A stretch of DNA of 64,000 bases from Vreelandella malpeensis. Its GTDB lineage: Bacteria > Pseudomonadota > Gammaproteobacteria > Pseudomonadales > Halomonadaceae. Position 1 is the first letter of the stretch, and each line of letters begins with the position of its first letter. The translations under genes were made by a program, and so were the position numbers. The DNA lies in NCBI RefSeq assembly GCF_020622355.1, contig NZ_WHVL01000002.1:434001-498000 (forward strand), in the 5' to 3' direction. This document shows positions 19,576-32,760 of this stretch, one piece after another. The notes under the pieces were generated by a model, which was not told the DNA's origin, did no database searches, and saw only the letters and a program-made list of their open reading frames with translations.

Positions 19576-19764
19576 TTATTCGGGTTCGCTTTCGGTAGTA
19601 CGCTCGCGCTGGATCCGCTGATAGATCTCTTCGCGGTGCACAGCGACATCCTTGGGTGCGTTCACACCGATCCTGACTTGATTACCTTTCACACCTAACA
19701 CTGTGACGGTGATCTCATCACCGATCATCAGCGTTTCGCCTACGCGGCGCGTTAGGATGAGCAT
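19576..19764 (-). CDS. csrA: Carbon storage regulator CsrA (RsmA)
   Basis: 62 residues; homodimeric RNA-binding protein that recognises A(N)GGA motifs in hairpin loops and ribosome-binding sites. Conserved L4 and R6 (MLILTRR), the beta-strand core [25 protein letters not shown] and R44 in [16 protein letters not shown] are all present. The start has AAGGAG eight bases upstream. Lies between lysC and the tRNAs, its usual place. A candidate antagonist RNA for it is encoded at 31065-31255 in this same window. Confidence 0.97.
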
Positions 19765-29507: not shown

Positions 29508-30902
29508 CTAGACGCTTCGCGGCTCACCCAGCTCGTCGGACTCGGCGGCGAAGACCGTCGCGTCATGCTGGCCCAGCAGCCGGCTGGTCACCGTGCCGGC
29601 GGTCATCGAGCCGTTGACGTTGATCGCCGTGCGGCCCATGTCGATCAGCGGCTCGATGGAGATCAGAAGCCCGGCCAGCGCAATGGGAAGATCGAGCGTG
29701 GAGAGCACGATGATCGCCGCGAAGGTCGCCCCGCCACCCACGCCTGCAATGCCGAAAGAGGCCAACGTCACCACTAGCACCAGGGTCGCCAGGAACTCGA
29801 AGGAGAGCGGATCGATGCCCACGGTGGGCGCGATCATCATGGCGAGCATTGCCGGATACAGCCCCGCGCAGCCGTTCTGGCCGATGGTGGCGCCGAAGGA
29901 AGCGGCGAAGTTGGCGATCGCCGGCGGCACGCCGATGCGATCTACCTGGGCTTCGATGTTGAGCGGGATGGTCGCCGCACTCGAGCGCGAGGTGAACGCG
30001 AACGTCAGCACCGGCCACACCTTCTTGAAGTAGCGCAGCGGATTGACGCCGGCCCCGGAGAGAAACAGCGCGTGCATCACCAGGATCAGCGCCAGGCCGA
30101 TATATGAGGCGACCACGAAACCGAGAAGACCGAGGATGTCATCGAGGTTCGAGGTGGCCACCACCTTCGCCATCAGCGCCAGAACGCCGTAAGGGGTCAG
30201 GCGAATCACCATGCGCACCAGACGCATGATCCACTTCTGTACCACGTCGATACCATCGATCAGTTTGTCGCCGAGGACGGGGTTCTCGCGCTTGATGCCC
30301 AGCGCCGCCATGCCCAGAAAAGCCGCGAAAATCACCACGCTGATGATCGAGGTGGGGCGAGCGCCGGCCAGGTCCTGGAAGGGGTTGCTGGGAATGAACG
30401 ACAGCAGCAGCTGGGGCACGGTCAGATCCGCCACCTGGGCGCTGCGCTCGATGATGTCCTGGCCGCGCTCGAGCTCGCGCGCACCCTGGACGAGTCCCTC
30501 GGCGGAAAGGCCGAACAGCTGGGTCATGCCGATGCCGATGATCGCCGAGATCGCCGTGGTGATCATCAGAAGCCCCAGCACGCCGACGCTGATCTTGCCC
30601 AGGGCGCTGGCATCATGCAGCCGGGTGACCGCCGAGAGGATCGTCACCAGTACCAGCGGCATGATGATCATCTTCAAGAGCTGCACATAGCCGCCGCCGA
30701 CCAGATTGACCCAGTCGATGGTGCCGGTGAGCGTCGCCGTGTCGTCGGCGTAGAGGGCCTGCAGCAGGGCACCGAGCACTACCCCGACCACAAGGCCCGC
30801 CAGCACCACCCGGGACAAGCTGGCGCCGCTTCGCTGCCAGCGCGCGAGCGCCACGATGGCGAGCGCGAAAATCAATACATTAATGGCTACTAACCAGGGC
30901 AT
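29508..30902 (-). CDS. tcyP: L-cystine transporter TcyP (YdjN-like), dicarboxylate/amino acid:cation symporter family
   Basis: 464 residues, DAACS (SLC1-type) fold. I recognise strong resemblance to E. coli YdjN/TcyP along the whole length: [47 protein letters not shown], the HP1 serine loop [33 protein letters not shown] and the ion site [19 protein letters not shown]. Imports cystine with cation coupling. It lies between fdxA and the candidate Csr-type RNA, apparently inserted in a neighbourhood where pseudomonads have rsmZ directly beside fdxA. No sulphur-control site is recognisable upstream. Confidence 0.9.
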
Positions 30903-30947: not shown

Positions 30948-31064
30948 ACGGACAGGCTATGTAGATAGCCCGCTAATCCAGGCGCGTCATGGTAAGTAAT
31001 AGTGGAAAGGAATAACAATGCATTTTACTTATAACCAACTGAAAGTTTTCGTATCGACGAGCAT

Positions 31065-31090
31065 AAAAAAAGGCGACCCGTAGGTCGCCC
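31065..31090 (-). terminator. Intrinsic terminator of the candidate sRNA
   Basis: Stem GGCGACC / GGTCGCC (31072-31089) with a short loop, followed on the minus strand by seven T residues (31065-31071). It has no protein gene directly upstream, which itself points to a non-coding transcript ending here. Confidence 0.88.
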
Positions 31091-31255
31091 GCTCCAAGCA
31101 CTTCCTCTGACCACTCCCTGTGTCATACCTCCTGGGTGACCTTCCCTGCCGGGGCCAAAATCACTTCATCGCCCGGCGCACCCTGACATCACTCTCTTCT
31201 GCCTAAAGCATCCTTGCCTCCCCTAGTCCTTGGGGCAGTGTGACAGAGATTGCCG
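31065..31255 (-). ncRNA. Candidate Csr/Rsm-type small RNA (CsrA-sequestering, RsmZ-like)
   Basis: About 190 nt between eno and tcyP with no coding potential but eight GGA motifs on the minus strand; a ninth, in CTGGAG, lies just upstream. Several sit in the loops of small hairpins: CCCC-AAGGACTA-GGGG (31220-31235), GCA-AGGA-TGC, ACC-CAGGA-GGT and CAC-AGGGA-GTG. It ends at an intrinsic terminator (31065-31090). Two GacA/UvrY-type boxes lie upstream at 31403-31442. GGA-in-loop repeats, a terminator and GacA boxes are the known layout of RsmX/Y/Z and CsrB/C, which titrate CsrA; csrA is at 19576. The 5' end is not resolved; a longer RNA starting near 31310-31330 would include the hairpin at 31280-31309. 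No covariance model was run. Confidence 0.75.
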
Positions 31256-31279
31256 TTTTGGCAAAAAGCTCCAGGAGTG

Positions 31280-31309
31280 CGAAGGGCGAGCCTTTCGGCT
31301 CACCCTTCG
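31280..31309 (-). other. 13-bp GAAA-tetraloop hairpin between the GacA boxes and the GGA-rich core
   Basis: Read on the minus strand, CGAAGGGTGAGCC and GGCTCGCCCTTCG pair over 13 positions (one G-U) around a GAAA tetraloop. Immediately after comes CTCC-T-GGAG and then a T5 run. It is either the eno terminator, with a poorly placed U-tract, or the 5' stabilising domain of the sRNA. Confidence 0.6.
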
Positions 31310-31402
31310 ATACAGCATGGCTTTAAAATCAAAAACTTGAGTTTTAATTAGAGGTAAAATCCGTCTTGAATTACCGTTTCCAGAGCGATTTTCCTCGCCT
31401 CA

Positions 31403-31420
31403 AGTAAGAGATGTCTTACA
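31403..31420. promoter_or_regulatory. GacA/UvrY-type box A
   Basis: On the minus strand TGTAAGACATCTCTTACT, matching the GacA upstream activating sequence TGTAAG-N6-CTTACA at 11 of 12 defined positions. It lies in the eno-sRNA gap, about 150 bases upstream of the GGA-rich core. Confidence 0.75.
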
Positions 31421-31424
31421 TTTT

Positions 31425-31442
31425 TTTAAGCGATTGCTTACA
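31425..31442. promoter_or_regulatory. GacA/UvrY-type box B
   Basis: On the minus strand TGTAAGCAATCGCTTAAA, matching TGTAAG-N6-CTTACA at 10 of 12 positions. It is 22 bases (about two helical turns) from box A on the same face of the DNA and begins four bases beyond the eno stop codon. Confidence 0.65.
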
Positions 31443-31446
31443 CGGG

Positions 31447-32760
<1,314 letters not shown>

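Follow-up and report, generated by a model that had tools for sequence, protein, structure and literature searches.

A candidate GacA-controlled, CsrA-sequestering small RNA gene behind eno in Vreelandella malpeensis and its Halomonadaceae relatives

The DNA directly behind eno in Vreelandella malpeensis in all likelihood holds an unannotated gene for a Csr/Rsm-type small RNA, which would be activated by GacA through tandem boxes and IHF and would bind CsrA. The locus lies on the minus strand at 31065–31442 of the window, the whole stretch of 64,000 nucleotides that was analysed (contig NZ_WHVL01000002.1, positions 434,001 to 498,000), and all positions without a contig label refer to it. Judged from the sequence, the RNA is very probably a CsrA sponge switched on by a two-component system. 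What the sequence itself provides is the boxes, their spacing, a covarying RNA with unpaired GGA motifs, and genes for CsrA, GacA, a BarA-like kinase and IHF alpha; from there we infer the promoter, the start site, transcription, the binding of GacA and IHF, the binding of CsrA, and the effect on the regulon.

Two GacA/UvrY boxes, TGTAAGCAATCGCTTAAA (box 1, 31425–31442) and TGTAAGACATCTCTTACT (box 2, 31403–31420), are present on the minus strand as the sequence-only reading had quoted them, and each matches 11 of the 12 palindrome positions. The 22 bp given there as their distance is measured from start to start, and the gap between the boxes is 4 bp; in many relatives box 1 reads TGTAAGAGATnTCTCAAA, with the same 22 bp from its start to that of box 2. 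The centre of box 2 falls at about −181 from the predicted RNA start. The conserved upstream neighbour is eno (31447–32736, minus strand; TIGR01060, 667.7 bits against a cut-off of 300). A whole-genome scan for TGTAAGN6CTTACA with at most one mismatch returned six places, two of them at the eno locus, and no other two box-like places lay close together at that tolerance, so that the eno locus is the sole two-box place. The reversed pattern, scanned as a control over the whole genome, occurred twice per strand.

The sequence-only reading had let the RNA run for about 190 nt after the boxes. Its end, at the terminator (31065), was retained, and its start was moved to near 31230, because a putative −35 element (TTGCCA, 31259–31264) and −10 element (CACACT, 31237–31242) stand at 31264–31237 on the minus strand with a 16-bp spacer, and because the layout shared by the relatives' loci marks the boxes as an upstream control region. 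The predicted RNA is thus about 166 nt long (31065–31230, minus strand). A start directly after the boxes was rejected; a GC-rich hairpin (31280–31309, minus strand), which occupies the place of the eno terminator, lies between the boxes and the predicted promoter. The loci read in the window's genus follow one order: eno, two boxes, an AT-rich stretch, a hairpin replacing the eno terminator, the −35/−10 pair (often TTGAGA and CACAAT, 16 bp apart) and the RNA. As had been claimed, the RNA ends in an intrinsic terminator with seven T residues (31065–31090, minus strand) and the stretch contains no gene: among open reading frames of at least 40 aa, only a 42-aa frame touches it, over the last 37 bases of the RNA.

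A generic promoter scan of 31000–31500 returned no sigma-70 site. This miss, the position of the RNA directly behind eno on the same strand, and the lack of a T run in the hairpin at 31309–31280 would all suit an RNA derived from the 3' UTR of the eno mRNA, or a leader belonging to the transporter gene downstream, transcribed in either case without a promoter of its own. Despite the generic scan's result, however, the −35/−10 pair is conserved among relatives: with spacers of 15–19 bp allowed, it was found with 16 bp in 53 of 56 loci and with 17 bp in the other three (a separate promoter-plus-core pattern fixes the spacer at 16), and the boxes stand at a near-constant distance from it. The 15–19 bp search found no promoter in L016, L018, L026, L050, L051, L061 and L064. 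Moreover, in several other genera an eno terminator with a T run precedes the boxes (e.g., L045, L046, L076), and the RNA ends in its own terminator. Against a leader, the next gene in the relatives read downstream is mostly a convergent ferredoxin gene, with a transporter in L009 and L014. An eno 3'-UTR origin was rejected, and we regard an RNA of either kind without its own promoter as highly improbable. In the window, the transporter gene (29508–30902) separates the RNA from the ferredoxin gene that directly follows it in many relatives. The name tcyP previously given to this neighbour could not be upheld, because no NCBIfam model reaches its cut-off for 29508–30902; its product resembles GltP/DctA-type symporters.

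Measured from the predicted RNA start, the best box begins between −193 and −186 in 48 of 55 loci; the remainder lie at −179 (two loci), at −169 to −167 (four) and at −212 (one). In six loci the distance is shorter by about one or two helical turns, and the four with a box at about −168 resemble one clade by eye; L056 (−212) was not taken as a helical shift, because its box occupies the usual place of box 1. Between box and predicted promoter lies an IHF-like site, AATCAAAAACTTG (31327–31339, plus strand), a perfect match to WATCAANNNNTTR, which we take to be the IHF consensus and used as the yardstick; the match in the window spacer was equalled in 1 of 100 shuffles. Of the 55 loci, 40 have a match with at most one mismatch in this interval, and in 11 of them, the window among these, it is perfect; shuffles showed that one-mismatch matches are common by chance in such AT-rich DNA. 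Thirty-one of the 40 share both their offset (62–64 bp after box 2) and their orientation, one of these sites (L056) being ambiguous. In four of the six shortened loci the IHF-like site is displaced equally, so its distance to the promoter is kept. IHF alpha is encoded in the genome. The locus thus appears to have a csrB-type layout, with a box about 180 bp upstream and an IHF-like site between box and predicted promoter.

The GGA content of the window RNA was evaluated against shuffled sequences. Eight GGA motifs, the number claimed earlier, do occur from predicted start to end, at chance level (7.5 and 7.7 in dinucleotide shuffles, of which 98 of 200 and 54 of 100 were as high). The further claim that several of them lie in hairpin loops did not hold for the minimum-energy fold, in which one of the eight does so (1.2 in shuffles; 138 of 200 as high), whereas the consensus of the relatives does place GGA in two loops. 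The fold energy is ordinary (z −0.64). Both G residues are unpaired in six of the eight motifs, against 2.8 in shuffles (12 of 200 as high). As the number of GGA motifs, the hairpin-loop GGA and the fold energy of the window are all at chance level, the case rests on conservation. A GGA count and a fold no better than shuffled sequence are also what a terminator preceded by two accidental palindromes would give; the family-wide conservation and covariation described below speak against such a coincidence, to which we attach almost no probability.

Similar comparisons were made among the relatives. In 34 of 56 loci, no more than 5 of 100 dinucleotide shuffles reached the GGA count; in the other 22 the count was not clearly above shuffles. 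All six short-form relatives that were folded showed an excess of unpaired GG (4–8 motifs unpaired; 0–11 of 200 shuffles as high). In their minimum-energy folds, hairpin-loop GGA was in excess in L055 (0 of 200 shuffles as high) and L046 (2 of 200), and in L004, L025, L043 and L059 it was equalled or exceeded by 119, 116, 34 and 46 of 200 shuffles, respectively. Several GGA motifs are thus single-stranded in the window, in these six relatives, in the consensus, and in three longer Cobetia-type forms described below.

To follow the RNA across the family, we compared the locus with 201 Halomonadaceae genomes. A blastn search with the 387-nt locus matched 106 of them; within the genus it matched 49 of 50 (the own genome counted), G146 being the one without. 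The sequence-only reading had named loss of the boxes in close relatives as an argument against itself; this was not seen, and at least one box is present in 45 of 46 same-genus eno loci examined (G138 among them), G146 again being the sole case with no box at eno. Forty-two of 55 short-form loci were then aligned on sequence alone (alignment A1, 196 columns). Fetched loci without a promoter-plus-core match, for example Cobetia-type and ~300-nt forms, are not among the 55, nor are L050, L051, L053, L060, L071 and L073; L018 was admitted with a promoter-and-core match of four mismatches.

The RNAalifold consensus of the 42 short forms contains 31 pairs, 15 of which are changed on both sides, and 97.8% of its cells are paired. 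Changes on both sides affect 77 cells, where shuffles gave 21.9, and on each of five measures of covariation none of 500 shuffles was as high; the structure was derived from A1 itself, and the sequences are related. Sliding the partner columns by 1–3 positions reduced pairing to 34–51%. On the minus strand of the window, helix 1 is a 5' hairpin with GGA in its loop (31205–31220; three of six pairs changed on both sides). Helices 2 and 3 form a long stem, GGTG-GCCGGG / CCCGGC-CACC (31135–31182; seven of ten pairs changed on both sides), with GGGA single-stranded within its 3' internal loop; in the window, the pairing of GGTG is shifted by one base relative to the alignment. Helix 4 is a hairpin, TGAC-(ACAGGGAGTG)-GTCA, with GGGA in its loop (31108–31125), and all four of its pairs are changed on both sides. 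In the consensus, GGA accordingly occupies the 5' hairpin loop, the 3' internal loop, the linkers and the loop of the strongly covarying hairpin.

A covariance model, R1, was built from the 42 family sequences. It scores the window RNA, itself one of the 42, at 155.6 bits (E 2.0e-42). Among the 201 family genomes, 173 match at E ≤ 0.01, 161 of them at E ≤ 1.4e-9 and the other 12 weakly; the 161, of which 42 supplied model sequences, cover 16 of 24 genera. Alignment and model together show a family-wide covarying RNA with unpaired GGA. In an order-wide sample of 293 genomes, 104 matched R1 at E ≤ 0.01; of these, 11 belong to the family, and the best match outside it was weak (34.5 bits). Nine of the weak loci outside the family, compared with Rfam, gave only a tRNA in one locus, and in L201, L203 and L205 the match is by eye a terminator between or behind genes; these were set aside. 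An exact terminator-pattern scan of a named collection yielded 114 stretches, 82 with eno at most 1.4 kb upstream; within 1 kb, 77 of these 82 show a box that matches 10 or more of the 12 positions, and five show one that matches 9. No eno was seen for the other 32 of the 114, among which one Cobetia record had too little upstream DNA.

Known RNA families were searched as well. An Rfam scan of the window at the thresholds returned three tRNAs only, and 20 related loci gave no match. Of the families with which the sequence-only reading had associated the RNA, CsrB, CsrC, RsmX, RsmY and PrrB_RsmZ all stayed below threshold in the window; the best sub-threshold match at the locus is nevertheless rsmX (19.9 bits against 56, E 0.25). 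A weak RsmY match lies inside the Cobetia-type RNA of L075 (20.1 bits against a threshold of 57, E 0.39). Other sub-threshold matches concerned families without bearing, such as eukaryotic microRNAs.

Elsewhere in the genome, the only exact TGTAAGN6CTTACA lies outside the window, at G000:C16:55942-55959 (L002, L034). It falls in the long intergenic stretch that separates the divergent genes tssB and hcp in a type VI secretion locus, and GacA may act there directly. The GacA-like palindromes of C12 and C17 fall inside long open frames, and that of C14 is intergenic with no such RNA seen by eye. At G000:C9:174582-174613 (L033) and at G172:C1:1079378-1079413 (L035), in two genomes of the same genus, a stretch of about 34 nt is similar to the RNA's 5' end; it spans the ends of two convergent genes, one lipoprotein-like and the other for an XRE-type regulator. 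A second RNA at G000:C9:174582 was rejected, as by eye no box, further GGA-hairpin stretch or terminator stands alongside; the likeness may be a duplication remnant or a coincidence.

Next, the protein partners were considered. CsrA and GacA are both encoded in this genome: the proposed target, csrA, lies where it had been placed (19576–19764, minus strand) and was confirmed by NF002469 (115.5 bits against a cut-off of 73), and GacA is encoded at C11:35853 (283.6 bits, just above the curated cut-off of 280), next to a frame that is presumably uvrC. A BarA-like hybrid kinase scores 601 bits over positions 3–892 of 920, below its cut-off of 890. Taking E ≤ 1e-60 as the definition of GacA+, GacA was found in 35 of 42 and 19 of 31 genomes in two sets, of which only 16 of 42 and 17 of 31 pass the curated cut-off. 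Among the 38 RNA-bearing genomes with both GacA status and eno locus at hand, a box with 10 or more of the 12 positions stands at eno in 25 of 27 GacA+ genomes (9 of 12 in the other two) and in none of 11 GacA− genomes (Fisher 6e-8, a p-value that overstates the association, because five GacA-less genera form one clade, which means about one loss). That clade comprises genera g10, g15, g16, g17 and g18 (100/99) in a tree of Eno, which does not include genera g3, g8 and g22 or the H. elongata row and in which three rows are partial. The association is largely one evolutionary event.

The absence of boxes where GacA is absent further supports control by GacA. Together with the boxes at near-constant spacing, the covarying RNA, and the presence of CsrA and GacA, it favours on comparative grounds the earlier proposal of a GacA-controlled, CsrA-sequestering RNA. 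Some GacA+ genomes lack both a clear RNA and a box at eno, namely G146 of the same genus and eight genomes of genera g3, g4, g5, g22 and g24; the best box in these eight has 7–9 of 12 positions, apart from G024, with 10 of 12 at eno+3 (6 of 200 shuffles as high). As none is clear at eno, the Csr RNA of these nine genomes, if any, would lie elsewhere. In L256 (G018), the place just behind eno that the RNA has in many other genera is taken by 7-nt repeats in a long run, TGCCACC at first and a related unit after it.

The RNA varies widely in size. In Cobetia-type loci (L040, L041, L075, L079) the predicted RNA is far longer than the 166-nt form. In three of them the predicted RNA measures 705–723 nt and carries 34–40 GGA motifs (22–25 in shuffles), with 9–14 in hairpin loops (about 3 in shuffles) and 19–20 with unpaired GG; for both of the latter counts, 0 of 40 shuffles were as high in all three forms. 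A 727-nt stretch of L041 that covers most of the RNA has a much more stable fold than 20 shuffled versions (z −7.5), and a Cobetia amphilecti record gives 715 nt and 39 GGA with the start rule unchanged. In three genus-g20 loci the predicted promoter gives 301–317 nt with 11–13 GGA, a length that is unsure because the R1 match spans only 159–199 nt in those genomes. In the GacA-less genus g8, four tandem units were counted by eye in two genomes, where model R1 found three and two; these RNA-like units (L220, L221) stand behind eno with terminator-like ends by eye and without GacA boxes.

The Cobetia-type forms bear on what the RNA does. A GacA-activated small RNA acting mainly by base-pairing with mRNAs (of the Hfq type), its GGA motifs being secondary, would fit the finding that conservation is highest in the 3' part, a feature of some seed regions. 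The conserved bases cluster, however, on the GGA motifs, the covarying stems and the terminator, and the surplus of GGA and of hairpin-loop GGA in the Cobetia-type forms is what is expected of a protein sponge; we consider a base-pairing RNA very unlikely. For the sponge, the chances seem evenly balanced that a single gene behind eno in most Halomonadaceae genera has been resized about fourfold and has outlived the loss of GacA, the boxes being lost and the RNA kept, such that CsrA titration no longer followed the Gac signal but depended on gene size or copy number. The forms in such a history would be the 166-nt RNA, one of possibly about 300 nt in some genomes, the 705–723-nt RNA of Cobetia, and the tandem units of g8. 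The giant Cobetia form and the GacA-less clade would then be natural experiments on the amount of sponge needed and on the loss of an activator.

These observations suggest the following working model. Phosphorylated GacA (UvrY) would bind the tandem boxes about 180 bp upstream, and DNA bending by IHF would bring this activator to a weak sigma-70 promoter around 31264–31237. An RNA of about 166 nt would be transcribed, ending at 31065, and its unpaired GGA motifs would bind CsrA dimers and thereby release CsrA-controlled mRNAs.

A 2020 table enters the small RNA partner of the Gac system in Halomonas anticariensis as 'Unknown', and for a Halomonas the same source lists quorum sensing, exopolysaccharide and biofilm as controlled by GacS/GacA (PMC7366521). 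No description of a Csr/Rsm RNA was found in the part of the open-access literature on Halomonas, Chromohalobacter and Cobetia that was covered. The RNA family in Halomonadaceae thus appears to be undescribed in the searchable literature, the class and its mechanism being long known. Our analysis offers a candidate for the RNA that would link GacS/GacA to CsrA in 16 of the 24 sampled genera of the family, and model R1 can be used for annotating it there.

An arrangement similar to that of the present locus occurs in L086, the record of strain FP35 of Halomonas anticariensis (a species now placed in Litchfieldella), where eno, the terminator pattern and a box with 11 of the 12 positions are present; L039, taken as the contig of L086, contains both promoter and RNA. 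The Pseudomonas RNAs RsmX, RsmY and RsmZ are similar in size to the 166-nt RNA and share with it a GacA box and GGA motifs, as well as the sub-threshold rsmX and RsmY matches. Their GacA box lies near −65, whereas here it is about 180 bp upstream of the predicted start, and the RNA remains below every Rfam threshold. E. coli CsrB is 369 nt long; in contrast, the RNA described here has 166 nt, is placed behind eno and gives no CsrB match at threshold. The E. coli csrB upstream region contains an 18-nt near-palindrome, TGTGAGAGATCTCTTACA, centred at −183/−182, with a partial second repeat at a distance of 5 bp; a putative IHF site lies between palindrome and promoter (PMC4682653). The candidate resembles csrB of E. 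coli and Salmonella, with its UvrY(SirA)-IHF promoter, in its distal box, the second box nearby, the IHF-like site between box and promoter, and the GGA-rich RNA, which suggests that the distal-box and IHF layout of enteric csrB also exists in a Halomonadaceae lineage.
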